Source: Kosmotogales bacterium
GTDB taxonomy: Bacteria > Thermotogota > Thermotogae > Petrotogales > Kosmotogaceae
DNA length: 47,461 nucleotides
Assembly (NCBI GenBank): GCA_030156385.1
Contig: JASGMR010000007.1
Span: 1 to 47,461 of the forward strand
Reading direction: 5' to 3'
Shown here: positions 791-41,491 of the stretch, in pieces
How the letters are laid out: each line of letters starts with the position of its first letter
Numbering within the stretch: position 1 is the stretch's first letter
Program-made: the position numbers and the translations under genes
Notes under the pieces: model-generated
Databases searched by the model: none
Told to the model about the DNA's origin: nothing
Seen by the model: only the letters and a program-made list of their open reading frames with translations

Positions 791-1984
791 TTACAATTTT
801 ATGCCTAAATTCCAAATGCTAAAATCGTCCTGTTTTTCTATTTCCGCTTTACATTTTTCTCCATTTACAATATCTATGAGTACTTTAAAAAGTTCATTGC
901 CGTAATCGATCAAATCTCTCCCATCTAATATTCCCGAAGCGTCAAAATCGATATTTTCTTTCATTTTTAAGTATGTTTCATCATTTCCCGTTACTTTTAT
1001 AACCGGAACAATAGGATTCCCTGTGGGAGAACCTATTCCACTGGTGAATATTATCACGTTTGCCCCGGAAGCTACCATTCCTGTTACAGATTCAATATCG
1101 TAACCGGGTGAATTCATTATTGTAAGTCCTTTTTCTTTGAGAAGTTCAGAATAATCTATAACGTCTTGAATGGTTTGAGTCCCACCCTTTATAGCCGCTC
1201 CTAATGCCTTCTCTTCTATCGTCGATAATCCTCCCCGGACATTACCTGGTGAAATACAATTTGGCATATCCAAACCATCCACACGCGCTCTCCGATTTTT
1301 TCTGCTTTCGTTTTTTAAGAAATTTACTTTTTCATAAAATTTCTCTTTAATCAAATCATTTTTCATTCTTTTTTTAAAAAGTTTCTCAGCACCAATCAAT
1401 TCTGTTATCTCGGAAAGAATTACTGAACCTCCATTTGCTATCACTTTATCCGAGGTTTTGCCGACAACGGGATTGGCGGCAAGTCCGGAACTAAAATCAG
1501 ATCCACCACATTCTACGCCGAGAACTATTGAATCCAAAGGGACTTCTTTTCTTCTTATTTTTGCAGCGTCTTCTACCATTTTTTTTGCAATTTCGATACC
1601 TTTTTCTACAGTTTTTCTCGTTCCGCAATCTTTTATAAGAAGCATTTCAACGTTTTTTCCGTCGTTTTCAATTTCTTCTTTTAATTCAAATGGAGATGTT
1701 TTTTCACAACCCAATCCAACCAATAATACTGACGCAACATTGGGATTGAGTGCTGTATTTTTTAATGTTCGCATAACTTGAATGTAATCCTCACCTTTAT
1801 GTCCACATCCCTCATTATGGTACGCAACAGCACATCCGGCAACAACAGAAGATATCTTTAAGGCCACTTTTCCGGAACAAGAAACTGTAGGGAGAATTAA
1901 CACATGATTTCTGAAACCGATTTTCCCATCTTCCCTGATGTATCCAAAGAGTTTGCTCTCATTCTTCAAACTTGTATTCATCAT
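791..1984 (-). CDS. UxaA-family sugar-acid dehydratase, catalytic subunit
   Basis: At 397 residues this is the C-terminal catalytic part of the altronate/galactarate dehydratase family, iron-dependent lyases that remove water from aldonic or aldaric acids. The family start motif GYIREDGKIGFRNH is at residues 14-27. Further family signatures are GCGHKGEDY near 60-68, LGVECGGSDFSSG near 154-166, and the C-terminal GIGSPTGNPIVPVIKVTGN. The N-terminal SAF domain is encoded separately by the next gene upstream in the operon, and the two overlap by ATGA at 1981-1984, so they are likely coupled. Split versions are known for altronate dehydratases and for (2R)-sulfolactate sulfo-lyase (SuyAB). The sugar-acid neighbours favour a sugar acid as substrate. 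The gene ends the operon; no strong terminator is visible. Confidence 0.85.
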   Translation of the reverse strand: MMNTSLKNESKLFGYIREDGKIGFRNHVLILPTVSCSGKVALKISSVVAGCAVAYHNEGCGHKGEDYIQVMRTLKNTALNPNVASVLLVGLGCEKTSPFELKEEIENDGKNVEMLLIKDCGTRKTVEKGIEIAKKMVEDAAKIRRKEVPLDSIVLGVECGGSDFSSGLAANPVVGKTSDKVIANGGSVILSEITELIGAEKLFKKRMKNDLIKEKFYEKVNFLKNESRKNRRARVDGLDMPNCISPGNVRGGLSTIEEKALGAAIKGGTQTIQDVIDYSELLKEKGLTIMNSPGYDIESVTGMVASGANVIIFTSGIGSPTGNPIVPVIKVTGNDETYLKMKENIDFDASGILDGRDLIDYGNELFKVLIDIVNGEKCKAEIEKQDDFSIWNLGIKL

Positions 1985-2253
1985 TCTGTTTCTCTTCCTT
2001 TTATGTTATGAGTATGAACATGGTATCCTTCACAGATTTTTTTCGTTGTGATTCCTATTATTGCACCATATTTAATCACATTTTCGTTTTTATTAAAATC
2101 TTTTAATGCTATTTTATGACCTTTTGATATTTTCTCATTAGCTACAATCTTGAATCTGCCCTCTCCTGTAATGCTTATCATATCCCCTTTCTCAACTGAT
2201 TCCAAAAGGGTAGCAACATTGTCTTTTCTTGATGTTATTATTGCCTTTTTCAT
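1981..2253 (-). CDS. UxaA-family dehydratase, small SAF-domain subunit
   Basis: A 90-residue SAF domain, the N-terminal module of the UxaA/GarD family. The key motifs are ISKGHKIAL in the middle and KYGAIIGITTKKICEGYHVHTHN near the end; the VHTHN stretch is diagnostic. An upstream TTG (2265) would add four residues, but ATG at 2253 has GGAG placed correctly before it and starts one base after the stop of the FAH gene, so I choose ATG. The product probably forms a heteromer with the 397-residue catalytic subunit encoded just downstream. Confidence 0.85.
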   Translation of the reverse strand: MKKAIITSRKDNVATLLESVEKGDMISITGEGRFKIVANEKISKGHKIALKDFNKNENVIKYGAIIGITTKKICEGYHVHTHNIKGRETE

Positions 2254-2254
2254 T

Positions 2255-3004
2255 TTATTCTCCAACGAATTCGTTTTTTAGAGTTCCTATTCCTTCTATT
2301 GATATACAAACAGTGCTTCCGTTACAAACTTGTTTTCCCGCTGGAGAACCTGAGGTAATTATGTCGCCGGGATTTAGAGTCATTATTTTCGAACAATAAG
2401 ATACTAGTTCCGCAATTCCGAAAACAAGCTGATCTATAGTCGTTTTTTGTACTATTTCTCCATCCAAAGTAGTTTTGAGTGATGCATCACTCTTTATCTC
2501 GGTATTAATGACTGGCCCAATTGGTAAAAAGTCATCGGCTGATTTTGCTTCGACCCACTTTTTGCTTTTGCCCAACATGTCCACTGCTGTTATATCGTTG
2601 CTACACGTGTAACCAAATATATAATTCATTGAATCACCTGGTTGAATATTTTTGCATCTTTTTCCAATGATTATTACTAATTCTCCCTCGATAAAAACCT
2701 TTTTTGAATATGAGGGAATTTTAATCAAATCTCCCGAGGCTGCAAGGGCTCCAAGTCCTTTCAAAAAGAGAAAAGGCTCGGAAGGAAAAGTTTCCCCCGA
2801 TTTAAAATTCGATTTATAATTTTTTCCTATTCCAATAATATTTTTAGGATCAACCGGACAGAGAAGTCTCCCGTCTTCTTTAGAAATTATTTCTCCGGTC
2901 TCTTTCCATTTTTGCCAGGGTTTTTTATCAATAATATATACTTTGTTTTCCTTTACCGATCCCCAATGTGCTTTATCGTTATATTCAATTTTACAAAATT
3001 TCAT
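2255..3004 (-). CDS. Fumarylacetoacetate hydrolase (FAH) family protein
   Basis: A 249-residue single FAH domain. Visible hallmarks are IIGIGKNYKSN near residue 56, the metal-binding EGELVIIIGKRC near 106, CSNDITAVD near 133, AKSADDFLPIGPV near 153, and the C-terminal ITSGSPAG. The family cleaves carbon-carbon bonds of 2,4-diketo acids, or acts as isomerase or decarboxylase, using Mg or Mn. In sugar-acid clusters such proteins act as 2,4-diketo-3-deoxy-aldonate hydrolases, giving pyruvate plus a hydroxyacid. The nearby LarA and 2-hydroxyacid dehydrogenase would fit that, but the assignment is inference. It sits within the operon, 16 bp after larA. Confidence 0.8.
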   Translation of the reverse strand: MKFCKIEYNDKAHWGSVKENKVYIIDKKPWQKWKETGEIISKEDGRLLCPVDPKNIIGIGKNYKSNFKSGETFPSEPFLFLKGLGALAASGDLIKIPSYSKKVFIEGELVIIIGKRCKNIQPGDSMNYIFGYTCSNDITAVDMLGKSKKWVEAKSADDFLPIGPVINTEIKSDASLKTTLDGEIVQKTTIDQLVFGIAELVSYCSKIMTLNPGDIITSGSPAGKQVCNGSTVCISIEGIGTLKNEFVGE

Positions 3005-3020
3005 TTTCTTTTCCTCTCAA

Positions 3021-4280
3021 TCAGTCTAAAATAGGTAATAAATCTGCTGCAAATTTCATCACAGATACTCTTGGATTACTGTATTCTTTCAAAGATTTAT
3101 CCACAGCTTCCTGAAGAGATTCCGCTTTTTCTAATCCCATTTTTTTGCATTCTATTTCTGTCAATCCCGGTGATACAACCAGAACTTTTCTCGCTTTGAA
3201 AAGGATTTCACCGGCATGTACAATATGTGCCGCAAGAATTCCATTGCTGATTTTCCCCGATTCGAATAATTTTTTAATTTCTTCGTAAGTATTCTTATAT
3301 CCATATTTTAATAATTCTTTTCCGAATGTTTTCGATATTCCCTCGGGACATGGAGTAACCAGTATTAATGTTCCTCCGGGTTTTACCGCTGCAACGGCTG
3401 AGTATATTCCCTTTGAAGCTTGCCATAATTCTATATCTGCGGGATGAGATTCAGATATAACTATTTCAGCGGGTTCGACTTTAAACCCAAATATTTCTTT
3501 AGTCTTTTCTGCAGCCGCTCTGTGAGCCTCTACAGAATCCCCACAGAAAAAATCAACTATTTGATGATGATTGTCCTGTACAACATTTATTATGAACTTC
3601 AAGCCCGCTTTTATTCCAATTTCATCTAACTCTTTTCTTATGGGGTTATCTCTTATACCCATAATATCGTTTACTTTATATTTAGCACTCAACCAATGTG
3701 TAGCTTCGGTGGTCTTTCCTGCTGAAATTCCCGGCTGCATTATTTTTGTTCCTCCTGAAAAGCCGGTACATCTGTGGGGAACAACCTGACCAGTTCCGAT
3801 TATGTAATCGTAGTTATCTATAATATCATTTATTAAAACAGGGATTCCGCTATTTGTTGTTCCAAAATCATGATAAGTGGCTTTGATCCAATCATGTTGA
3901 AATATTTTACACCTATCTATAATCTTTTTCCCGAACTTCTTCTCTATTTCTTCATCTTTCATTTTTCGGTGGGTTCCCAGACAAACAATTATTGAAAAAT
4001 TCTTTTCCGGAAATAATTCAATGAGAGTGTCAATAATTATTTTCACATTGGTGGTTCTGGTGTTATCATCACTCAATAATAGTATCTCTTTTTTGTTTTC
4101 CAGCTCACTTTTGAGGCTGTTGGCAAAAATAGGTTTCTCCAATTTGTTTTTCAATTTATTTTTCAATTCTTTTTCTGTCATCGGCGATGCCTGTTTTGGC
4201 TCATATTCCTTTAAAATAACATCATTAGATATAATTGCTTCAGATATTTTTGGGTCATCATAGCTCATTTTTATTTTCAT
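3021..4280 (-). CDS. LarA-family nickel-dependent 2-hydroxyacid racemase/epimerase
   Basis: The 419-residue product shows the DUF2088/LarA signature: LLSDDNTRTTNVK near residue 68, CLGTHRKM near 98, and VPHRCTGFSGGTKIMQPG near 167-184, with the histidines and lysine that hold the nickel-pincer cofactor in lactate racemase. The family includes lactate, malate and other hydroxyacid racemases, and at least one member is described as a D-gluconate 2-epimerase. Here a sugar acid or lactate is likely. Cofactor genes larB, larC and larE are not in the window. ATG at 4280 has TTGGAGGAAATATC before it. A TTG 33 bases upstream would read through that ribosome site and is rejected. The start overlaps the ROK gene by 23 bp. 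Confidence 0.85.
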   Translation of the reverse strand: MKIKMSYDDPKISEAIISNDVILKEYEPKQASPMTEKELKNKLKNKLEKPIFANSLKSELENKKEILLLSDDNTRTTNVKIIIDTLIELFPEKNFSIIVCLGTHRKMKDEEIEKKFGKKIIDRCKIFQHDWIKATYHDFGTTNSGIPVLINDIIDNYDYIIGTGQVVPHRCTGFSGGTKIMQPGISAGKTTEATHWLSAKYKVNDIMGIRDNPIRKELDEIGIKAGLKFIINVVQDNHHQIVDFFCGDSVEAHRAAAEKTKEIFGFKVEPAEIVISESHPADIELWQASKGIYSAVAAVKPGGTLILVTPCPEGISKTFGKELLKYGYKNTYEEIKKLFESGKISNGILAAHIVHAGEILFKARKVLVVSPGLTEIECKKMGLEKAESLQEAVDKSLKEYSNPRVSVMKFAADLLPILD

Positions 4281-5262
4281 GATATTTCCTCCAATATAAT
4301 CTGATTTTTCCAATTACTTCTGCACCCATTATAGAAGAATTGGGAAATGAATATGCTTTTTTAACGATGATCTTACGATTGGCAATTTTATATGAAAACT
4401 CATCTGCCCATTCCTGTATTATAGGAACTACCACATCAGATTGTTTTAATATTCCTCCACCGAGACGAAAGTTACTGATATCCAGTAATCCTGAAATGTA
4501 AGCAATGGCTTCTCCTAAATAACTAAAAGCATCTTTTGTTATTTCTATAACTTTCCGATCTCCTTTCCGGTATAATTCCATAGCTTTTATTATCAATTCT
4601 TTTTCCGGTAACGAACTGTGAGATTTAAACTCCTTTCTATATTCTCTAGCCAATGATCTTCCGGAAGCATATGCCTGTACACAACCTCTTCTACCACATG
4701 AACATTTTTCACCATAAGGTTTTATTATCAAATGTCCCAATTCGGCCGCTGAATAATTTTCACCTTCGAACAATTCATCCTTTAATATCAATCCTGCTCC
4801 AATTCCGGAACTGATCGTTATATACATTAGGTTTGACACCTCCGGTGTCATATATTTTTCTGCTAACGCTCCCGCATTACAATCATTAATAACTTCAACA
4901 GGTTTATTGAATATTTTTTCCGATAGTTTTTTAAGAGGGTAATTTTTCCATCCTAAATTCGGACTGTATATAACTTCTCCGAGAGAATTAACTGCTCCGG
5001 CAGTACTAATCGAAATTATTTTTACATTTTTTAAATAACGTATTTTTTTCTCAATCAAATCTTTCAAATTTGGTACAAATTTTTCTTCATTATTTTTATC
5101 AGTTAAAACATTTGTTGAAAATTCTTCTTCTGAAATTGTTTCAAAAGAATAATCAGAAAGCCTTATGAGAGTTTTCGTTGCTCCAATATCTATTGAAAGA
5201 AGATATCCTGAAAAAGTGTAATTTTTTATTTCATTTATTGATGATTCTTCTAATTTATACAT
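4258..5262 (-). CDS. ROK-family sugar kinase
   Basis: The 334-residue product has no N-terminal helix-turn-helix, so it looks like a kinase and not a ROK repressor. The ATP phosphate loop DIGATKTLIRL lies near residue 25, the catalytic aspartate in VINDCNAGALAE near 128, SSGIGAGLIL near 150, the sugar/zinc ELGH near 173, and the zinc motif CSCGRRGC near 185. The usual Glu after this zinc motif is Gln (GCVQAYASG). The family phosphorylates hexoses and amino sugars; here a sugar or keto-deoxy acid is possible. ATG at 5262 lies two bases after the dehydratase stop. An ATG at 5286, inside the dehydratase gene, is less likely. Confidence 0.85.
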   Translation of the reverse strand: MYKLEESSINEIKNYTFSGYLLSIDIGATKTLIRLSDYSFETISEEEFSTNVLTDKNNEEKFVPNLKDLIEKKIRYLKNVKIISISTAGAVNSLGEVIYSPNLGWKNYPLKKLSEKIFNKPVEVINDCNAGALAEKYMTPEVSNLMYITISSGIGAGLILKDELFEGENYSAAELGHLIIKPYGEKCSCGRRGCVQAYASGRSLAREYRKEFKSHSSLPEKELIIKAMELYRKGDRKVIEITKDAFSYLGEAIAYISGLLDISNFRLGGGILKQSDVVVPIIQEWADEFSYKIANRKIIVKKAYSFPNSSIMGAEVIGKIRLYWRKYHENKNEL

Positions 5263-5264
5263 AT

Positions 5265-6410
5265 TTATTTTTCTCTCTTTTCCCATCCTTTTATAAAAAG
5301 ATTCAATGCTTCCGACCCATCAGAAAGATGTTGATTTATTTTTTCATCCACGAGTTCGATCCCCAATCCGGGTTTTTCAGACGGGTACAAATATCCATCT
5401 TTAACTTCGAATGGTTTTTTAATTAATTTACGTGTCCAGGGTTCATTGAAATCATCGAATATTTCTTGAATGGCAAAATTGGGAGTTGATACCCCAAAAC
5501 TAACACATATTGCTGTGGAAATTGGCCCTTGTGGATTATGAGGAGCCACTCCAACCCCGTAAGCTTCAGCTATAGCGGCAACTTTTTTAGCGTGCGAAAT
5601 ACCTCCGGAATTAATTATGTCGGGTTGAGCTATTTGTACTCCTCCCTCACTTAAAACATCTGCCCATAATTCAATGTTGTAGAATCTTTCCCCTGCAGCG
5701 ATCGGTACTTTTGATCTTTTTGATACTTCTTTTAATCCATCAATATTTTCCGGGGTTACCGGTTCTTCAAAAACCATAGGATCGAATCTTTCGATTTCAT
5801 TTGCTATTCTTATTGCCGAATCCACAGCGAACCTTCCGTGTCCTTCTATTAATATTTCAATATCATTTCCTATTGAAGATCTCACCGCTTCAACAATTTC
5901 CATTGATTCCCTGATTTCCTTCAATGTGACCACTCCGGCAATATCTCCAAAGGGATCAAATTTCAAAGCTTTATATCCCATATCTACAACCTTTTTTGAA
6001 CTTTTTGCAAATTCTTCAGGCGTTCTTTCGTGTCTGTACCAACCGTTTGCATAACAAAGAAGCTTTTCATTAAATTTTCCACCAATTAATTTCCACAGTG
6101 GAACGCCGGCATGTTTTGCGATAATATCCCAACAGGCTACTTCTATCGCGGTTATTGCACTTTTATGTATCATTCCTCCCCTCGAGAATACATGAGCAAA
6201 CATATCATACGCTATTCTTTCTATATCATGAGGATCTCTATTCATAAAATAAGGAGAAAGTTCTTTAACCGACTGTACAACTGAAAGGGCAAATCCATTC
6301 AATGTACTCTCTGATATACCCGTGTAACCATCGTCAGTAGTCAATCTGAAAAACACCCAACTTTTCCATGGATTTCCAACGACAAACGGTTCAATTTTTA
6401 CGATTTTCAT
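5265..6410 (-). CDS. Enolase-superfamily aldonate dehydratase (gluconate/galactonate type)
   Basis: The 381-residue protein has the mandelate racemase/muconate lactonizing fold. The N-terminal capping domain holds DDGYTGISESTLNG. The barrel has FDPFGDIAG near residue 153, metal ligands in ILIEGHGRF, FEEPVTPENI and AAGERFYN, and the catalytic histidine in APHNPQGPIS near 296. These match sugar-acid dehydratases that turn gluconate, galactonate or related acids into 2-keto-3-deoxy acids. Exact substrate specificity cannot be read from sequence. The ribosome site GGGAGAG lies in the end of the preceding gene. It is a likely source of substrate for the adjacent aldolase and PfkB kinase. Confidence 0.85.
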   Translation of the reverse strand: MKIVKIEPFVVGNPWKSWVFFRLTTDDGYTGISESTLNGFALSVVQSVKELSPYFMNRDPHDIERIAYDMFAHVFSRGGMIHKSAITAIEVACWDIIAKHAGVPLWKLIGGKFNEKLLCYANGWYRHERTPEEFAKSSKKVVDMGYKALKFDPFGDIAGVVTLKEIRESMEIVEAVRSSIGNDIEILIEGHGRFAVDSAIRIANEIERFDPMVFEEPVTPENIDGLKEVSKRSKVPIAAGERFYNIELWADVLSEGGVQIAQPDIINSGGISHAKKVAAIAEAYGVGVAPHNPQGPISTAICVSFGVSTPNFAIQEIFDDFNEPWTRKLIKKPFEVKDGYLYPSEKPGLGIELVDEKINQHLSDGSEALNLFIKGWEKREK

Positions 6411-6413
6411 ATG

Positions 6414-7394
6414 TTATACTCTCCCGAGCTCTTTTTTATTTACAAATCCATATGGCTCTTCTCCTTTTAGAACTTTTAATACATTTGTGGCAATCTTTTT
6501 TCTTATTTCAATTTTCGATTCTTCCGAATACCAACCACAGTGTGGAGTTGCGATAACATTATCCATTGATAAAAGCGGGTTATCTTTACTCACAGGTTCG
6601 TTTTCAAATACATCTAAACCTGCAGCAGCTATGCTTTTTTCATGTAAAGCGTTTATCAATGCATTTTCATCGATAATCGCGCCCCTTGAAGTGTTTATTA
6701 TAATTGCAGTATTTTTCATTAAATCGAATTCTTTTTTTCCTAACAGATGTTTAGTTTTAGGAGTTAATGGAACATGAATTGAAAGAATATCGCTTTCTTT
6801 AATCAATTTATCGAAGGTAACCTTTTTTACTCCATGTTCTTCGAATATTTCATCAGAAATAAATGGATCATTAACCATCACTTCTAACCCCAGAGCTTTG
6901 AATTTTTTTGCTGCGAACTTTGAAATATTTCCGAATCCGAGTAATCCTGCTTTTAATTTGTCGAATCTATGTATTGGAACTCCAGGTTTCCAATCCCATA
7001 TTTCTTTTAATAAATTTTTATGGTAAAAATTTAGTTTTTTCGTTAAAGCATAGGACATTGCAATCACAGAATCCGATACCTCTTCTTCACAATAACTGGG
7101 AACATTTAATACTATAATTCCATTTTCAGTACAGCTTTCAACATCAACATTGTCATATCCGATACCGTATCTTGCTATCACCTGACATTTTTTCAACGAT
7201 GAAATAATCTCTCTATTCATCGGAGCATATTGTGTCAATATTGCGTCTGCGTCTTTCAACTTTTGCATTAAAATCTTAGGATCTCTTGTATGTAATTCTA
7301 AAATTTCCGCATCAACTTCCTTAGTTAAAATATCCCTTTCTATATTCACATCGGGATTGTCATAATCTGTAACGTATACTTTAAACTTTGTCAT
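6414..7394 (-). CDS. D-2-hydroxyacid dehydrogenase (SerA-like, NAD-dependent)
   Basis: The 326-residue protein lacks a C-terminal ACT domain, so it is not a classical full SerA. The Rossmann motif LGFGNISKFAAKKF lies near residue 149, HVPLTPKTKHLLG near 205, the catalytic Arg in INTSRGAIID near 233, the Glu in GLDVFENEP near 259, and the catalytic His in TPHCGWYSEES near 282. The family interconverts D-2-hydroxyacids and 2-keto acids. In this operon it may oxidise D-lactate, glycerate or a sugar acid, or reduce a keto acid. ATG at 7394 follows AGGAGGAATTGAG, which also forms the end of the aldolase gene. Confidence 0.85.
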   Translation of the reverse strand: MTKFKVYVTDYDNPDVNIERDILTKEVDAEILELHTRDPKILMQKLKDADAILTQYAPMNREIISSLKKCQVIARYGIGYDNVDVESCTENGIIVLNVPSYCEEEVSDSVIAMSYALTKKLNFYHKNLLKEIWDWKPGVPIHRFDKLKAGLLGFGNISKFAAKKFKALGLEVMVNDPFISDEIFEEHGVKKVTFDKLIKESDILSIHVPLTPKTKHLLGKKEFDLMKNTAIIINTSRGAIIDENALINALHEKSIAAAGLDVFENEPVSKDNPLLSMDNVIATPHCGWYSEESKIEIRKKIATNVLKVLKGEEPYGFVNKKELGRV

Positions 7395-7395
7395 C

Positions 7396-8298
7396 TCAAT
7401 TCCTCCTGACGTAAGCTGCTAAATCTGTATCCTTTGAAAGATATTCATCTATTTCTTCCATCTGTTTGTCTGTAACAGATGTTAATGGCGACCTCATATA
7501 TCTTTTGCAAATACCTTGATACTCCAATAAAGCTTTAAATCCGGACAATGAAGGAAACATTTTGATCAGTTTCCTTAGTGAGCATACAATTTTTTGTAAT
7601 TCAATTGCTTTTTTGATATCTCCACTATCATACGCTTTCATTAAATCCGAAAGTAACTTAGGTGAAGCGCATGCAGTTGCTGCGACGGCCCCACTGGATC
7701 CGGCATTGAGAAAATGGTATATGAGTGCATCGCTTCCGGTTAAATATACTTTTCCCTCTATAATATCTTTGGCTTCTCCATACCAACTTATATCATGAGA
7801 ACTATCCTTAAGTCCGACAAAATTAGGAAGACTCGCAATTTTTTCCAACGATTTCATACTGATAGGCAATTTTGTCATTTGAGGAATATAGTAAAGAAAA
7901 AATGGAAAATTAATATTTTTTCCAACTTTCAAATGATGTTCCGTTATTTGTTCTTGATTGAGAATGTAATAATACGGAGAAACAACAGCCACAGCATCAA
8001 CACCATCTATTTTCTCCAGTAATTTCGCATTCTCAATCGTTTTTTTTGTTGTAATATCACCAATGTTGGCTATAACATTCATATTTTTCGATGTTTTTGA
8101 AACAATTTCTATCACATCGTACCTCTCCTGACTGGTGAGATGGGGAAATTCTCCTGTTGTTCCAAGAGCGTAAATTCCTCTAACCCCACCTTCTTCAAGG
8201 AAGTTCACTAAATTAACCAGCGATTTTTTATCAATACTCTCATCCTCGTTGAAGGGAGTAACCATTGCTGGATAGATACCTCTCCATTTATTTAGCAT
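7396..8298 (-). CDS. DapA-family aldolase, probable 2-keto-3-deoxy acid aldolase
   Basis: A 300-residue class I aldolase of the dihydrodipicolinate synthase/N-acetylneuraminate lyase family. The GTTGEFPHL phosphate/carboxylate loop is near residue 46, the proton-relay tyrosine in FLYYIPQ near 134, and the Schiff-base lysine in VGLKDSS near 162. The window holds a separate dapA in the lysine operon, so this copy almost surely serves the sugar-acid pathway, cleaving a 2-keto-3-deoxy acid to pyruvate plus an aldehyde. It lies between the kinase and the hydroxyacid dehydrogenase genes with almost no gap. Confidence 0.85.
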   Translation of the reverse strand: MLNKWRGIYPAMVTPFNEDESIDKKSLVNLVNFLEEGGVRGIYALGTTGEFPHLTSQERYDVIEIVSKTSKNMNVIANIGDITTKKTIENAKLLEKIDGVDAVAVVSPYYYILNQEQITEHHLKVGKNINFPFFLYYIPQMTKLPISMKSLEKIASLPNFVGLKDSSHDISWYGEAKDIIEGKVYLTGSDALIYHFLNAGSSGAVAATACASPKLLSDLMKAYDSGDIKKAIELQKIVCSLRKLIKMFPSLSGFKALLEYQGICKRYMRSPLTSVTDKQMEEIDEYLSKDTDLAAYVRRN

Positions 8299-8302
8299 GT
8301 TT

Positions 8303-9259
8303 TCACCTCTCTATTCCTTTATTATTAATATTTGTTATATTCAATACTTCTTCATAATTGAATATTGGTTCGTCTCCAATGATAGTTCTTTTTAACGCAG
8401 CCAATGAGTTTCCAATTTTCAGTGATTTTTCAATGTTATTACCCTTCATCAAGGAAGAAACAAACCCGGCATCAAAAGCATCTCCAGAACCAATTGGGTC
8501 AACAGTATCAGATGTTTTAGTGGATTCTTCATATATTTTATCTCCGTCGAAAGCCATTGCACCTTTAGCACCGAGTGTGAGAACTACAAGATTTGATTTA
8601 AATTTGCCCTTAAGCCAGGTTACAATTTCTTTATTTGTACCTTTAACCTTAAATAGAGTCTCTGCATCTTTTAAACTCACAAAAAGATAATCGAATCCCA
8701 GTTTTAAAACCTGGGAAATTTCTTTGCAAGCCCTTTCTGGTGACCATAGTTTTGATCTATAATTTACATCAAAACTCAATTTTATATTTCTTTTTTTGGC
8801 TTCTTCGATAAAATCCATCATTACAGCTTTTGTATTCTCTCCAAGGGCCAACGTTATTCCAGTTAAATGTATTAAATCAGCATTCTCCAGTACTTTCCAA
8901 TCAATTTCACTGGATTCAATATATCTCACAGCCGAACCATTTCTGTCGTATATCACTTGAGTATTTCTCGGAAATGCCCCGTATTCTATATAATATGTTC
9001 CGACTCTGTATTTGTTCGTCCATACGATCGATGTGTTTACTCCATAACGATTCAAATTGTTCACTATTGATTTTCCCAACGCGTTATTTGTTAATTTTGA
9101 AACCCAAACTGTTTCGACCCCCATTCTCGTGCATCCCAAGCAAAAATTAGATTCTGCTCCTGCCGAACGAAACTCAAGATATTGAGATTGCTCAATTCTT
9201 TCCTGCCTGATAGTCGATAATCTTATCATGGTTTCACCAAAAGAAACAACTTTTGCCAT
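8303..9259 (-). CDS. kdgK: PfkB-family sugar kinase, probable 2-keto-3-deoxygluconate kinase
   Basis: A 318-residue ribokinase-fold kinase. The N-terminal VVSFGETMIRLS is typical of 2-dehydro-3-deoxygluconokinases. AGAESNFCLGCTRMG near residue 33 is the first PfkB signature. DTVDPIGSGDAFDAGF near 245 carries the catalytic Asp and anion hole, with Ser in place of the usual Ala in GAGD. It would phosphorylate 2-keto-3-deoxy acids made by the dehydratases. It has a clear AGGAG-type site (GGAGAAAAAATT) before ATG 9259. Confidence 0.8.
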   Translation of the reverse strand: MAKVVSFGETMIRLSTIRQERIEQSQYLEFRSAGAESNFCLGCTRMGVETVWVSKLTNNALGKSIVNNLNRYGVNTSIVWTNKYRVGTYYIEYGAFPRNTQVIYDRNGSAVRYIESSEIDWKVLENADLIHLTGITLALGENTKAVMMDFIEEAKKRNIKLSFDVNYRSKLWSPERACKEISQVLKLGFDYLFVSLKDAETLFKVKGTNKEIVTWLKGKFKSNLVVLTLGAKGAMAFDGDKIYEESTKTSDTVDPIGSGDAFDAGFVSSLMKGNNIEKSLKIGNSLAALKRTIIGDEPIFNYEEVLNITNINNKGIER

Positions 9260-9277
9260 AATTTTTTCTCCTTTTTT

Positions 9278-10147
9278 CTAAGATTTAACTGCACCGGCGG
9301 TCATTCCACCCACAACATATTTTTGCAAAATTGCATATATAATTACTGGAGGTGCTGCAGCGACTAAAGCAGCCGTCATCAATACACCCCACTGGTAAAC
9401 ATCACCCACTTTCATCATAGTTATCGCTAAAGGTAAAGTCATTTTATCTGTAGAATTTATTATTACAAGTGAATATAATAAGTCGGCCCATGATCTGGTA
9501 AAAGCAAAAACGGAAGAAGTGACCATACCTGGAGCGGCCAAAGGAAGAACTATTCTGAATAATGCACCAACTTTTGTCGTACCATCTATTAAGCCGGCTT
9601 CAACTAAAGATTTTGGTATATTTAAAAAATAACTTCTCATCATCCAAGTCGTAAACGGAACCGCAATCAATAAATGTGCGAGAATTACACCTACTCTGGT
9701 ATCAAGTACACCCAACTTATTCAAAAGGATAGATAGAGGACCTACTAATATAAAAGGCGGGAAAACATAAGCAAATAATACAAATGACGAAACCGATGGA
9801 TTGAATTTTGTCGGAAACTTTGTTAAACCGTAAGCAGCGAATATTCCAACTACAACGGCTATTAATGTTACAACACCGGAAATATACAAACTGTTAAGGA
9901 TAGCGGGCCACAGGTTTTTTCCCAAATATCCTTCCCACATAGGATTGTAAACAAAAACTTTTTTATAATTATCCAGTGTGAAATTATCCGACCATAATCT
10001 ACCCAATCCATCACCCATTGTTTCCGTATCAGGTTTAAAGGATGTCAATACTACCCAGTATAAAGGGGTGCATATCATTAAAGTCATTATTATTATCGTG
10101 ATTATTCTCAAAGTTTTTATTATTTTCATTCTCTTTTTTCTCGTCAC
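9278..10147 (-). CDS. ABC transporter permease, MalG/CUT1 type
   Basis: A 289-residue membrane protein with about six hydrophobic segments. The cytoplasmic EAA loop (EAGLIDGTTKVGALFRIVLPLAAPG) near residues 184-208 docks the ATPase. It forms the sugar import channel with the MalF-type partner encoded immediately upstream. The chosen start is GTG at 10147, which overlaps the partner's TAG stop as TAGTG and has GAGGGTG before it; ATG six codons in is possible. No ATPase gene lies in the operon, so a shared MsmX-type ATPase encoded elsewhere is likely. Confidence 0.88.
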   Translation of the reverse strand: MTRKKRMKIIKTLRIITIIIMTLMICTPLYWVVLTSFKPDTETMGDGLGRLWSDNFTLDNYKKVFVYNPMWEGYLGKNLWPAILNSLYISGVVTLIAVVVGIFAAYGLTKFPTKFNPSVSSFVLFAYVFPPFILVGPLSILLNKLGVLDTRVGVILAHLLIAVPFTTWMMRSYFLNIPKSLVEAGLIDGTTKVGALFRIVLPLAAPGMVTSSVFAFTRSWADLLYSLVIINSTDKMTLPLAITMMKVGDVYQWGVLMTAALVAAAPPVIIYAILQKYVVGGMTAGAVKS

Positions 10148-11022
10148 TATAAATCACCCTCTGTTTTAGCCATGAGTTTTACCACCCAAAATATTGCAAC
10201 TAAAAATATGGGGAGAATTAATATACTTTGCGTTATTCCCAAGGGAAGTTTAAATTTGCTGAACGCTGTTTCGTATATCAATATCGGCAGTGTTCTTGTG
10301 GCATCTCCAGGGCCTCCCGCAGTGGTTAGATAAACAGTTTCAAATTCTCCGAAAGTCCATATTGTTGAAAGAAGAGTTGTTGTTAATATAACCGGTTTTA
10401 ATGACGGTAAAGTGATTTTCCAAAAACTCTTCCAAACACCGGCACCATCGATTTCAGCAGCCTCGTACAATTGATCAGGAATAGCTTGTAAGCCTGATAA
10501 AACACTCATAAAGAAGAAGGGCCAGCCTTTCCAAATATTTATCATAATTATTGTTATTAGAGCAGTATCATAACTGAACCAATCGACAGTTTGAATATTT
10601 AACGAATGAAGTATTTCATTTATTGGGCCAGACCAATCTAGAATCCCATACCATATCAGTGCAACTACAAATGGAGGTATTGACCACGGTATCAATGCAA
10701 TTCCCCTAAAAATACCAATTCCTCTGAATTTTTTGTTCAACGCAAGAGCAAATAATATTCCCAATATAATTTTGATGATAATAGCCGAGGCAGTATAAAT
10801 TCCGGTTCTCAAAAATGATTTATAAAAGTCAATATCTGTAAGCACCTTTACATAATTTGTAAATCCTTGAAATGTTTTTGGCACGCCCCTGAAAACAGAT
10901 TTAAAGAAAGATAAATAACCACCGAAAAATAATGGGAAGACCAATAATGAAGCAATTATTATTATAACTGGAATAACAAACCACAAATTTGATAAAGTTT
11001 TGAGTCTAGAAGATTTTAACAT
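10147..11022 (-). CDS. ABC transporter permease, MalF/CUT1 type
   Basis: A 291-residue membrane protein with about six segments. It has the first loop FQGFTNYVKVLTDIDFYKSFLRTG and the EAA loop YEAAEIDGAGVWKSFWKITLPSLKP near residues 196-220. ATG at 11022 follows TTGGAGGCATTAAA. A longer reading from 11067 runs through an intergenic hairpin and is rejected. It pairs with the MalG-type permease and the binding protein of this operon. Confidence 0.88.
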   Translation of the reverse strand: MLKSSRLKTLSNLWFVIPVIIIIASLLVFPLFFGGYLSFFKSVFRGVPKTFQGFTNYVKVLTDIDFYKSFLRTGIYTASAIIIKIILGILFALALNKKFRGIGIFRGIALIPWSIPPFVVALIWYGILDWSGPINEILHSLNIQTVDWFSYDTALITIIMINIWKGWPFFFMSVLSGLQAIPDQLYEAAEIDGAGVWKSFWKITLPSLKPVILTTTLLSTIWTFGEFETVYLTTAGGPGDATRTLPILIYETAFSKFKLPLGITQSILILPIFLVAIFWVVKLMAKTEGDL

Positions 11023-11041
11023 TTTAATGCCTCCAATTAAT

Positions 11042-11071
11042 AAACATGGAGAGTGGGCCCTCTCCATGTTT
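11042..11071 (-). promoter_or_regulatory. Intercistronic hairpin between binding protein and permease genes
   Basis: A perfect 12-bp inverted repeat (11042-11053 and 11060-11071) with a 6-nt loop sits between the binding-protein stop and the permease ribosome site. On the transcribed strand no U-run follows, so it is not a standard terminator. Similar hairpins between malE-like and malF-like genes stabilise the upstream mRNA and give more binding protein than permease; this role is inferred. Confidence 0.6.
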
Positions 11072-11084
11072 GTTACAAAAAAGT

Positions 11085-12341
11085 TTATTCTTTGAGTTCT
11101 TCTAATTTATTAACAACATCTTTAACAATATCTGTTATATTTCTATTATTGAACAGAAGATCAGTCACAGAATCTGCCCAAATAAAAGTCATTTGTGCTG
11201 TGTCTGAGATGCTTGTTGCTTCATTTAATGGGAAGGCTGTAGGATTGGATACATGTTTAATTGAGAGAATTATTTCCATTGGATCTTGTCCAAATCCTTC
11301 CCATTGTCCATTTTTCCATTGCTCGGAAATTATTTCAGCCTGACTGATGAATATTGGAAGTCCGTAACATTCAGATGATTCAATAAAGTTAACTCTGTAA
11401 TCTTCTTTGTCTGCAAAGAAAGTGTAGATAAGATCTTTCGACAATTCAGGGTATTCGGTAGTACTGAAAACAAAACAAGATTCTTCTCCACCATCCGTAG
11501 TTTCCCCAATACTGTATAACTTGGTCACTTCTGCTAATTCTGGTTTGCTTCTTTTAAGAGAGTAATAAATACTCGGAGGATTCGAAGTCATTGCGATATT
11601 CTCGTTAATATACGCGTTGTTATTACCGATATCGATCATTCCTCTTGTTGGTATCGCTTCGTTATCATAAAGATATTTGATCCATGCATACGACTCATAA
11701 GTCGCAACTGAGTTAAATACTATTTCATTGTTTTCAGCTAAATACCCACCATTGTGATTGATTAAAACATCTATGAAATGATTATTTGAATCCATCGATC
11801 TACCCAGAGAAAAACCAAGACCGTAAAATTCTCTCGAAGGATCTGACAATTTAACAGCTGCCTCCGCTAATTCCGCATAATTTGTTGGAATTTCGATGCC
11901 GGCTTCTTCGAAAAGGTCAATCCTAATATGGTACAAATATGGTTCATAGAATGTTGGAATACCGTAGACCTTTCCATCGACCCTGTCTTCATTTAATTTG
12001 AATGGAAAAAAGTCATCCCTTCCCAATTTATCTACCACATCATCCAAAGGTAACAGTAATCCTTCCTCAGCGGGTTGTGCTACAGGCCATCCATGAATGA
12101 CCACATCGGGAAGATTTCCAGTTTGCAATGCGGCGGACATTTTACTATTGAATTGCTCAACTGGAACCAACAAGAAATTAACTTCAACATCATTCGCCTC
12201 TGCCCAGTCATTCACTTTGTTTGTCATCCAAGTGTTTTGTTCTGGAACGAAAGTTGCTCTTCCCCATACTTCTAATTTTGGCTTAGCGTAAAGAATCACA
12301 GCTACCAAAATTACCAATAACACGATAGCAAATTTCTTCAT
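11085..12341 (-). CDS. Extracellular sugar-binding protein of ABC transporter (family 1)
   Basis: A 418-residue exported protein. The N-terminus MKKFAIVLLVILVAVILYA is a signal peptide with a likely signal peptidase I site after YA. There is no lipobox Cys, so it is probably held otherwise or free. The mature part starts KPKLEVWGRA and contains TGNLPDVVIHGWPVAQPAEEG, as in CUT1 family 1 binding proteins. It is the first gene of the sugar-acid operon, with a promoter about 140 bp upstream. ATG 12341 has AAAGGAG nine bases before it. A TTG nine bases upstream abuts that site and cannot be the start. The ligand is unknown; an aldonate, uronate or acidic oligosaccharide is likely. Confidence 0.88.
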   Translation of the reverse strand: MKKFAIVLLVILVAVILYAKPKLEVWGRATFVPEQNTWMTNKVNDWAEANDVEVNFLLVPVEQFNSKMSAALQTGNLPDVVIHGWPVAQPAEEGLLLPLDDVVDKLGRDDFFPFKLNEDRVDGKVYGIPTFYEPYLYHIRIDLFEEAGIEIPTNYAELAEAAVKLSDPSREFYGLGFSLGRSMDSNNHFIDVLINHNGGYLAENNEIVFNSVATYESYAWIKYLYDNEAIPTRGMIDIGNNNAYINENIAMTSNPPSIYYSLKRSKPELAEVTKLYSIGETTDGGEESCFVFSTTEYPELSKDLIYTFFADKEDYRVNFIESSECYGLPIFISQAEIISEQWKNGQWEGFGQDPMEIILSIKHVSNPTAFPLNEATSISDTAQMTFIWADSVTDLLFNNRNITDIVKDVVNKLEELKE

Positions 12342-12468
12342 TTTACCCAACTCCTTTCGGTTTTTTGGTCTATCGACCTTGAAAAATATTTAAAATTGTT
12401 CATAAAATTTATCTTCTTCAATCCTACACAAAGATTCTCAGAAACACCCTATCGAATAAAGCAAACAA

Positions 12469-12491
12469 ATTTTTCCATAATATAGAAAAAT
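12469..12491. promoter_or_regulatory. Inverted repeat over the -10 of the sugar-acid operon promoter
   Basis: ATTTTTC, 9-nt spacer, GAAAAAT. The repeat spans the -10 hexamer of the operon promoter, a position suited to repression, perhaps by the neighbouring IclR protein. A second repeat of similar geometry (TATACA, 9-nt spacer, TGTATA) lies upstream at 12572-12592. Operator function is inferred from position and symmetry only. Confidence 0.4.
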
Positions 12492-12507
12492 CTAGATTTT
12501 GTTTCAA
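12479..12507 (-). promoter_or_regulatory. Sigma-A-type promoter of the sugar-acid operon
   Basis: Reading the minus strand: -35 TTGAAA (12502-12507), a 17-bp spacer, and -10 TATATT (12479-12484). Transcription would start near 12472, giving a leader of about 130 nt before the binding protein. A short GGTC/GACC hairpin lies at 12367-12378 just before the ribosome site. Confidence 0.6.
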
Positions 12508-12669: not shown

Positions 12670-13443
12670 TCATTTGCTTTTTCCCTCTAATTGCCTTATT
12701 TCCTCACTTATTTTTTTTGCTGCTTTGAGCATTTCTTTCAGCATGAAATTCTTATTATCTACAAACTTACTGTGTGGAACAGAAATACTAATTGCACAAA
12801 CAGGAATTTTATCGTTTGAAAAAATTGGAATTCCTATACAACTTACACCTTCATTTGATTCTTGAATATCATATGAATAGCCTCTCTTTTTTACTTCATT
12901 CAAGTTTTCTAAAAATTCTCTTTTTTCGACAATAGTATAAGGTGTACGTTTTTCAAAAGTTGTTTCTGAAATATATTTATATATCTCCTCTTGAGATTGA
13001 AAAGCCAATAATGCCTTTCCCAAGCCTGTTCTATATGCATATGCCACCATACCGACAATATTAGTATATATATATCCTCTCGGAGAATTTACTACTCTAT
13101 CTACATATATAACTTTGCCATCAGAGTAAACCCCCAAATGTGAATTACCTTGTAATCTCTTTGAAATTTCCTCAAGATATTTATGGGAAATTTCTTTTAT
13201 ATTAAGTTCAGTAGAAACATGAAAAGATAACTCTAAAATACCTAAAGATAATTTATAAAAATTATTTTTGTTTTCAATTATTTTTTCATCAACCAGAGTA
13301 TTTAAAATAGGCAGTATCGTACTAGGCGTTTTTTCAAATTTATCAGCAATTTCTTTTAAAGTTAAACCTTTCTTCTGATTATTCCCAATGTACTTTAGGA
13401 TATCAATGGCTCTTTTAACTGATTTCAAATATTTTTGTCCCAT
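12670..13443 (-). CDS. IclR-family transcriptional regulator
   Basis: A 257-residue regulator. The N-terminal winged helix-turn-helix covers about residues 1-75 (LKSVKRAIDILKYI, LTLKEIADKFEKTPSTILPILNTL). The C-terminal effector domain covers about 80-250, with YRTGLGKALLAF and GVSCIGIPIFSNDKIPVCAISIS typical of the family. IclR proteins control aromatic and sugar-acid (KdgR-type) catabolism and often sense a keto-deoxy acid. It lies directly upstream of the sugar-acid operon on the same strand with its own promoter, so it is the obvious local regulator. ATG 13443 follows AAAGGTG. Confidence 0.88.
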   Translation of the reverse strand: MGQKYLKSVKRAIDILKYIGNNQKKGLTLKEIADKFEKTPSTILPILNTLVDEKIIENKNNFYKLSLGILELSFHVSTELNIKEISHKYLEEISKRLQGNSHLGVYSDGKVIYVDRVVNSPRGYIYTNIVGMVAYAYRTGLGKALLAFQSQEEIYKYISETTFEKRTPYTIVEKREFLENLNEVKKRGYSYDIQESNEGVSCIGIPIFSNDKIPVCAISISVPHSKFVDNKNFMLKEMLKAAKKISEEIRQLEGKSK

Positions 13444-39930: not shown

Positions 39931-40640
39931 TCGGCTATTATTATAATGCCGTGGGAAACACTTTTTTAGTCGTCGATAATTTTAAAAAAGTGCTATCGGA
40001 CGATGAAAAGAGAAGAACGGTTTTAAAATATGTTTCAGATAAAGACGGGGTAATTTTTGTTCAGGACCATTTCATGGATTATTTCAATAGGGACGGTAAA
40101 AGAGCAAATTTCTGCGGTAACGGAGCAAGAACATATTTTGCTTATATGAATTATAAATATAAAGAAGAGAATTATACTTTCGAATCGTATTCAGGCAAAA
40201 TAGACGGGTTCATAAAAGATACGTATTATGTCAGTATGCCCCCTGTTAAAAACAAAAAAGTGACTGTATCATGTGGTATAAAAGGAACATTTTTAGAAGT
40301 TGGAGTTCCGCATTTTGTAACAGAAGGCGATACTGAAAATATAGACTGGAAAAAATACATTCCTGTAAGGGAAGAATTGGATTCAAACATAAATGTTTAC
40401 AGTGAAATATCTCCAGACTTTTTAAGGATCAGAACCTATGAAAGAGGTGTCGAAGGAGAAACAGGTGCATGTGGTTCCGGTTCCACGGCGACAGCTTATT
40501 GTTACAGCTTGAAAAATGGTTCTGAAACAGTGAAATTGAGAACGAACGGAGGCATTTTGAAAGTTTTATTTCGCGAAAATAATATTTTTTTAGGAGGCGA
40601 TGTGAAGAAATGTTCAGAGGAGTTGGAACTGCAGTTATAA
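39927..40640 (+). CDS. dapF: Diaminopimelate epimerase
   Basis: A 237-residue cofactor-free epimerase making meso-diaminopimelate from the LL form. It keeps both catalytic Cys motifs, NFCGNGAR near 59 and TGACGSGSTA near 184, but is shorter than the usual 270. It overlaps asd as ATGA. Confidence 0.93.
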   Translation: MIGYYYNAVGNTFLVVDNFKKVLSDDEKRRTVLKYVSDKDGVIFVQDHFMDYFNRDGKRANFCGNGARTYFAYMNYKYKEENYTFESYSGKIDGFIKDTYYVSMPPVKNKKVTVSCGIKGTFLEVGVPHFVTEGDTENIDWKKYIPVREELDSNINVYSEISPDFLRIRTYERGVEGETGACGSGSTATAYCYSLKNGSETVKLRTNGGILKVLFRENNIFLGGDVKKCSEELELQL

Positions 40641-41491
40641 CACCCTTTAAAGATAATAGAATCGATTACGAATCATTTGAAAAGATCATAGGGGATCAAT
40701 TGGATAATGGTATAAAAGCGTTAATTGTTCTTGGGACAACAGGTGAAGCACCCACGATAACGAATGCTGAAAAAAAGGAATTAATACAATTCTCAAAAAA
40801 TATTGTTAAAAACAGAGTGCCACTGATAATTGGAACCGGAACTAATTCTACCGAAAAAACTCTTAAAAGCAGTTGTTTTGCATTTGAGAACGGTGCCGAC
40901 GGGGTCCTGGTTGTTACTCCGTATTACAATAAACCAACTCAAAAAGGGTTGTTTGAGCACTTTGCTTATCTTTCAAATAATTTAAACGGCCCAATAATTA
41001 TCTATAATGTACCATCGAGGACCGGTGTGAATATTTTACCCGAAACAGTTAAAAGATGCTCGAATTTAAAAAATATAGCCGGAATTAAAGAAGCGTCCGG
41101 AAATCTTTTTCAAATCGATTCTTTGATAAAATTGTTTAAAGATAACGATAAATTCAAAATATGGTCAGGAAATGATGACAGTGCATTCCATTTGGTTTGC
41201 AGTGGGGGCGACGGCGTGATATCAGTCGTTTCCAACGTCGTTCCGAAGCAAATGAGCGAAATGATAAGTTATGCTTTGAATGGTGATTTGGAAAATTCGA
41301 GCAAATTGCATTTGGAACTGTTACCCCTCATGAAGAACTTGTTTTGTGAAACCAATCCGATACCTGTCAAATATGCTATGTCTTATTTAGGTTATTGTGA
41401 TAACAAATTGAGATTACCTCTTTGTACCTGTTCAAAGGAAACAGAAAAAATAGTGATTGATACTCTGAATGATCTGGGAATTGTAAAATGA
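40610..41491 (+). CDS. dapA: 4-hydroxy-tetrahydrodipicolinate synthase
   Basis: 293 residues. GTTGEAPT near residue 42, the tyrosine in YNVPSRTG near 134, and the Schiff-base Lys in GIKEASG near 162. It condenses pyruvate with aspartate semialdehyde. ATG 40610 overlaps the end of dapF by 31 bp with GGAGG 12 bases before, so it lies inside dapF. Confidence 0.95.
   Translation: MFRGVGTAVITPFKDNRIDYESFEKIIGDQLDNGIKALIVLGTTGEAPTITNAEKKELIQFSKNIVKNRVPLIIGTGTNSTEKTLKSSCFAFENGADGVLVVTPYYNKPTQKGLFEHFAYLSNNLNGPIIIYNVPSRTGVNILPETVKRCSNLKNIAGIKEASGNLFQIDSLIKLFKDNDKFKIWSGNDDSAFHLVCSGGDGVISVVSNVVPKQMSEMISYALNGDLENSSKLHLELLPLMKNLFCETNPIPVKYAMSYLGYCDNKLRLPLCTCSKETEKIVIDTLNDLGIVK

Follow-up and report, generated by a model that had tools for sequence, protein, structure and literature searches.

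Which compound is broken down with the help of an operon that combines a LarA homologue, two types of sugar-acid dehydratase, a D-2-hydroxyacid dehydrogenase and an FAH-family protein? The question is raised by the 47,461-nucleotide stretch of Kosmotogales bacterium DNA analyzed here (the window), which makes up the entire contig G000:C40 of a genome of 2.3 Mb and about 91% completeness. Twelve co-directional open frames run on the minus strand from position 12350 down to 791 and are separated by gaps of at most 18 bp or overlap, bearing out the twelve packed genes described in the initial annotation. Pfam matches confirm the family assignment of all nine enzyme genes (GD_AH_second/GD_AH_C, SAF, FAA_hydrolase with Rv2993c-like_N, Lar_N/LarA_C, ROK, MR_MLE, 2-Hacid_dh, DHDPS and PfkB), including the enolase-type and UxaA-type dehydratases, the kinase, the aldolase and the FAH-family member that had been named there. 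Read from position 12350, the genes are:

11085-12350, minus strand, CUT1-type solute-binding protein with weak matches to solved sugar-binding proteins; the ATG at 12341 is the more likely start
10147-11067, minus strand, sugar ATP-binding cassette (ABC) permease 1, an open frame with 41% identity to its homologue in genome G041
9278-10147, minus strand, sugar ABC permease 2, an open frame with 43% identity to its G041 homologue
8303-9259, minus strand, PfkB kinase of the 2-keto-3-deoxygluconate (KDG)/galactonate kinase type (NCBIfam KDG_KDGal_kin_Halo, 327.5 bits, cut-off 440)
7396-8298, minus strand, DHDPS/NAL-family aldolase (Pfam DHDPS, 190 bits)
6414-7394, minus strand, D-2-hydroxyacid dehydrogenase (Pfam, 191.6 bits)
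5265-6410, minus strand, enolase-superfamily sugar-acid dehydratase of the GalD or gluconate-galactonate type (NCBIfam and motif alignment)
4258-5286, minus strand, ROK-family sugar kinase without DNA-binding domain (Pfam ROK, 187 bits)
3021-4313, minus strand, LarA homologue, a proposed sugar-acid C2-epimerase by its cofactor and catalytic residues and pocket; the alignment points to an ATG within the frame, near 4280, as the start
2255-3004, minus strand, FAH-superfamily protein without the hydrolase lid dyad (Pfam FAA_hydrolase, 172 bits)
1981-2265, minus strand, UxaA small (SAF) subunit (Pfam SAF, 21.5 bits, cut-off 21)
791-1984, minus strand, UxaA large subunit with four conserved cysteines (Pfam GD_AH_C, 284.5 bits)

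The operon is real and forms a coherent unit for sugar-acid catabolism. All of its parts and most of their pairings are of known kinds, and the exact combination was not found elsewhere: a gene-neighbourhood search revealed clustered genes for FAH, enolase-type dehydratase and LarA in no other genome among 61 related genomes. The exact gene set is specific to this genome within that sample, and subsets of it recur in other genomes. We give even chances to the operon serving the catabolism of one or more aldonic (sugar) acids with LarA as a C2 epimerase. The CUT1 importer would then take up the sugar acid and LarA would invert carbon 2, which the D-2-hydroxyacid dehydrogenase could also oxidize or reduce. 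The enolase-type dehydratase would use (2R,3S) acids and the UxaA pair (2S,3R) acids, and with a C2 epimerase each dehydratase would gain access to acids of the opposite C2 configuration. From the 2-keto-3-deoxy acid thus formed, phosphorylation by the PfkB kinase and cleavage by the aldolase would give pyruvate and a triose (phosphate). Gene content and order, protein families, presence or absence of motifs and recurrence of neighbourhoods are observed; all substrates, the reaction directions and the (2R,3S)/(2S,3R) split are inferred. Of the two interpretations offered in the initial annotation, the epimerization of an acid by LarA to supply a dehydratase agrees with the pocket residues and subgroup of LarA as well as the LarA-UxaA and LarA-dehydrogenase neighbourhoods, an aldonate being the presumed substrate, and the interpretation built on lactate did not hold up.

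The LarA homologue keeps all cofactor and catalytic residues (D83, R86, H115, H180, K190, H206, Q298 and K301). In LarA numbering, the reference residues of the superfamily are R75, K184 and H200 for binding of the nickel-pincer nucleotide (NPN) and H108, H174, Q295 and K298 for catalysis. A structure model (predicted local distance difference test score 83) has the LarA fold, and global fold comparison confirms the LarA family without telling malate, lactate and gluconate types apart. The pocket features R181 and C182 in a loop, W297 in helix 11 and Ala-His at the positions of LarA 358/359. At positions 175/176/358/359, gluconate 2-epimerases carry E, V, A and H and lactate racemases F, F, W and E/Q, while malate racemases have H/Q and K at the last two, 358/359 (PMC11770544); a helix-11 Trp is listed for LarA groups 18-20 (PMC7583248). 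As judged from the alignment, the window LarA agrees with the epimerases distally, where A and H are present, and departs from them in the loop, where E and V are replaced by R and C. The lactate-racemase signature is absent (R, C, A and H; NCBIfam 228 of 460), as is that of the malate racemases (A and H; 254 of 500). No curated NCBIfam LarA family cut-off is reached by the window protein, G044a, L033 or L034. The D-gluconate 2-epimerases GntE (LarAH groups 18-20, with GntE2 of T. maritima and GntE1 of C. glutamicum) resemble it in being NPN-type LarA proteins with the helix-11 Trp, Ala-His at 358/359 and a sugar-acid context, but the window protein has Arg-Cys for the loop Glu-Val, scores 122 against a cut-off of 500 in the NCBIfam family for group 18 and lies in a separate part of the tree. 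The best full-length similarity is to the malate racemases Mar1/Mar2 (LarAH5/6; NCBIfam 254 bits, PDB 6d6z), from which it differs by lacking the His/Gln-Lys pair by which the second carboxylate is recognized and by remaining below the curated cut-off of 500.

A scan of 84,980 species genomes yielded 22 LarA relatives, and plasmid records contained distant matches only. In a maximum-likelihood tree, the window LarA groups with G044a, L033 (Acetomicrobium), L034, L035 and two divergent hexonate-epimerase-like sequences (99/97 support). A D-hydroxyacid dehydrogenase is encoded within 6 kb in all five LarA loci of this subgroup as opposed to 2 of the 36 LarA loci outside it (Fisher p = 3e-5, with loci that are not entirely independent of one another), and the two genes are directly adjacent in three of the five. 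Sugar-acid dehydratases lie near LarA in three of the four related subgroup loci (L033, L034 and L035), of the IlvD/Edd type in L033 and L035 and as full-length UxaA together with a 2-keto-3-deoxy-6-phosphogluconate (KDPG)-type aldolase (by inspection) in L034. Beyond these, LarA adjoins split UxaA in L050, L056, L059 and L072 and is found within about 6 kb of it in L060 and L062-L064. What these neighbourhoods share is most simply read as a C2 epimerase linked to C2-C3 dehydratases.

The enolase-type dehydratase stays under the curated cut-offs (DgoD, 293 of 311; glucon_galact_dh, 366 of 750). Its motifs GHGRF, EEP, GER and PHNPQGP align with E. coli DgoD, and the acidic metal ligands and both catalytic histidines are present (EGH for DFH, EEP, GER and PHNPQGP for PHCPLGP). 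The closest plasmid-borne relatives (39-42% identity) are mostly haloarchaeal (41-42%) and neighbour IclR, FAH and CUT1 genes. Haloarchaeal acid-sugar clusters, e.g. that of Halomarina sp. BND7 (L078), have nearly the same mix of IclR regulator, enolase-type dehydratase, FAH protein, CUT1 importer, split UxaA and DHDPS aldolase; they differ in that their annotated stretches contain no LarA and their FAH proteins keep the lid dyad or are of a longer type. GalD-type enzymes act on (2R,3S) acids. The second dehydratase is a two-subunit form of the UxaA/GarD family (COG2721) with its SAF small subunit and four-cysteine large subunit, the latter sharing only 31-32% identity with the E. coli proteins UxaA and GarD. 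Residues C36, C60, C93 and C159 align with cysteines of these two enzymes. Four cysteines have been reported for UxaA/GarD enzymes and not for sulfolactate sulfo-lyase, SuyAB (PMC6336799), and with all four present we reject SuyAB as the identity of the UxaA pair. The substrates D-arabinonate, D-altronate and L-galactonate of UxaA-family enzymes share a common C2-C4 configuration (PMC6336799). Given these substrates of UxaA relatives and the (2R,3S) preference of GalD, LarA and the two dehydratases together would cover both C2 forms of each series.

The KDG-type kinase and aldolase families in the operon are in line with a sugar-acid route via 2-keto-3-deoxy acids. The top PDB match of the PfkB kinase is KDG kinase 2afb. 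The DHDPS/NAL-family aldolase, only 27% identical to a DapA-like protein encoded at 40610-41491 in the same window, probably acts on a 2-keto-3-deoxy acid or its phosphate, as its family suggests. The dehydrogenase matches 1wwk (phosphoglycerate dehydrogenase) best and 9m0t (2-ketogluconate reductase) second and is 33-36% identical to the dehydrogenases adjoining the related LarA genes; lying near LarA, it fits a partner in C2 oxidation or reduction, though not one for lactate in particular. Attempts to deduce a substrate via PDB similarity were uninformative both for the ROK kinase, whose nearest solved relatives include glucokinases and N-acetylmannosamine kinases, and for the solute-binding protein.

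The LarA superfamily is NPN-dependent, and the genome offers no obvious source for this cofactor. LarB, LarC and LarE make it, and their genes are to be expected wherever a LarA system works, although they do not define the protein family. We searched the 61 genomes, G000 included, with the profiles NF033503 (LarB), PF01969 (LarC) and TIGR00268 (LarE) at their cut-offs. All three proteins exceed them in G040, G041, G052, G055, G057 and G059, and LarB and LarE do so in G042, whereas none of the three does in the other 54 of the 61 genomes, among them G000 with its assembly of about 91% completeness. The searches were sensitive, detecting weaker homologues below the cut-offs in G000 that are probably PurE and other PP-loop enzymes. 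LarA occurs in 34 of the 61 genomes and 28 of these 34 (G000 included) lack LarBCE over the cut-offs, seven of them in nearly closed assemblies of one or two contigs; near-closed examples are G002, G003, G009, G022 and G044. The aligned LarA proteins from LarBCE-lacking genomes keep the cofactor-binding lysine and histidines, and one of them, that of G058, carries Phe at the 298 position; a few genomes with weak LarA hits were left out of the alignment. By comparison, LarC is encoded in 16 of the 19 genomes from which the other LarA relatives come, those of L033 and L034 among them. Genomes with LarBCE and no LarA have been reported (PMC11796402); for the converse case, LarA without LarBCE, no report was found in the literature searched. 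Uptake from neighbours, another pathway or NPN-independent enzymes are possible explanations.

How, then, do other readings of the operon compare? The missing pathway could mean that LarA is made and remains inactive because the genome cannot supply the nickel cofactor, so that the operon runs on its two dehydratases alone. The searches do find LarB, LarC and LarE in relatives and controls, but cofactor and catalytic residues are intact in both LarA proteins of the genome, that of the window and the second one, as well as in the LarA proteins of pathway-lacking relatives. As intact residues despite a missing pathway argue for maintained function, we regard an inactive LarA as improbable. Closer to the proposed epimerization stands a role of LarA and the dehydrogenase as a stereo-independent redox pair that would convert a 2S acid to the 2R acid and on to the 2-keto acid, or in reverse reduce a 2-ketoaldonate, while the dehydratases serve parallel substrates. 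The recurrence of the pair throughout the LarA subgroup and the similarity of the dehydrogenase to 2-ketogluconate reductase agree with this. The pair is, however, joined by dehydratases in the window as well as in L033, L034 and L035, and LarA neighbours UxaA without a dehydrogenase in L056, L059 and L072. A dedicated redox pair is rather unlikely in our view, and it overlaps with C2 epimerization for a dehydratase rather than excluding it.

Two further routes hinge on the FAH protein. It keeps the metal ligands E106, E108 and D137 and the active-site lysine K154, yet the lid motif NYxxHxxE reads NYKSNFKS, Asn/Ser replacing the His/Glu dyad that seven aligned relatives keep. FAHD1 and the hydrolase of route III use this dyad, which has been reported as specifically important for the cleavage of a 2,4-diketo-3-deoxy acid. 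On these residues, C-C hydrolase activity of the window protein is improbable, and its substrate may be the enol or keto form of a 2-oxo acid. In one of its two readings, the initial annotation had FAH cleave such an acid into pyruvate and lactate, LarA racemize the lactate and the dehydrogenase oxidize D-lactate. The gene families are present, and comparable route III pathways are known from other bacteria; the non-phosphorylative ones of Herbaspirillum huttiense (PMC6336799) unite a UxaA-family dehydratase and an FAH protein in one catabolic scheme. These pathways, however, use a 4-dehydrogenase of the short-chain dehydrogenase/reductase family and a His/Glu FAH hydrolase; no such 4-dehydrogenase is among the twelve operon genes, the dyad is Asn/Ser and LarA lacks the lactate-racemase signature, all of which makes a lactate route highly improbable. 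Alternatively, the enolase-type enzyme or UxaA could form 2-keto-3-deoxypentonate, which FAH would dehydrate to alpha-ketoglutarate semialdehyde as in Herbaspirillum and archaea. This would agree with the nearest plasmid-borne enolase-type relatives lying with IclR, FAH, CUT1 importers and once the Gfo6 xylose dehydrogenase, with the long-type FAH proteins of those loci likewise lacking the dyad His, and with the pairing of split UxaA with FAH and GucD in Metabacillus. The window FAH, however, is 33-37% identical to the type of about 243-256 residues and 24-31% to the dyad-less type of 287-300 residues, and a KDG kinase would be unneeded. The sole full-length aldehyde dehydrogenase found in the genome resembles pyrroline-5-carboxylate dehydrogenase (by inspection), and with no matching aldehyde dehydrogenase found in the genome the semialdehyde route is disfavoured. 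We consider it quite unlikely.

Several points weigh against the catabolism of aldonic acids with LarA as C2 epimerase. Neither the ROK kinase nor the FAH protein has an evident role in this scheme. The LarA branch is long, so its join with L035 may reflect long-branch attraction and its exact place is unsure. With no curated cut-off reached, it is a few pocket residues and the neighbouring genes that point to the substrate class, and the failure to find LarB, LarC and LarE in this genome leaves the cofactor source unexplained.

The upstream region adds two features, of which the IclR gene went unmentioned in the initial annotation:

12670-13443, minus strand, IclR-family regulator (Pfam IclR_C, 135.6 bits), upstream of the operon
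12469-12507, minus strand, candidate promoter TTGAAA-17-TATATT, overlapping an inverted repeat with 11-nt arms

The IclR protein likely controls the operon. IclR genes also flank related enolase-type dehydratases in haloarchaea and in G041, which combines IclR, the same transporter (40-43% identity, with 40% for the solute-binding protein) and an enolase-type dehydratase in an IclR-dehydratase-ABC locus. The promoter candidate is a weak one, since promoter-like sites in this upstream region were no commoner in a scan than in shuffled sequences; the inverted repeat is a possible operator. At the other end, the contig edge follows 790 bases past the last operon gene and further downstream genes could thus be missing. 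Positions 1-600 by the edge carry, by inspection, an insertion sequence-like remnant resembling a transposase or transposon end.

Other LarA and UxaA loci deserve mention in their own right. The same genome contains a second LarA and split UxaA locus (L060, G000:C96) with a large subunit 56% identical to that of the window; similar loci are L062-L064. This locus type, conserved in genus g5, also encodes a Liv-type transporter, isopropylmalate-synthase-like, butyrate-kinase-like and phosphotransbutyrylase-like proteins (by inspection), an IolO-like epimerase and a GntR regulator. In L056 and L059, one run of genes combines split UxaA, malic enzyme, a Tct transporter and a LarA bearing the His-Lys pair of the malate type; it looks like a tartrate or malate route. 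A sister group of 19 LarA loci from Sporomusaceae, Chloroflexota, Acidobacteriota and others (L036-L054; pocket H, I, W, A, L) has PdxA-like and/or DUF1537 (four-carbon acid-sugar kinase) genes within 6 kb in 14 of the 19 as against none of 22 other loci, which makes these proteins candidate tetronate (threonate/erythronate) C2-epimerases. UxaA-like large subunits without three of the four conserved cysteines are encoded in L072 (9073-10227), L077 (9007-10194) and L078 (8989-10185); the haloarchaeal ones adjoin a second large subunit that has those three cysteines but lacks the fourth.

For the LarA subgroup that reaches no curated family cut-off, the proposed C2 epimerization of sugar acids provides a testable assignment. 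It is a tentative possibility that LarA is active in this lineage without LarBCE, using NPN from an undescribed biosynthesis or from neighbours, and that the window protein represents a new type of sugar-acid epimerase with Arg loop, Trp and Ala-His. Many LarA-bearing genomes of the lineage lack the sole known cofactor pathway, and the consequence would be that the cofactor is shared or taken up, made in another way or no longer needed by these LarA proteins.

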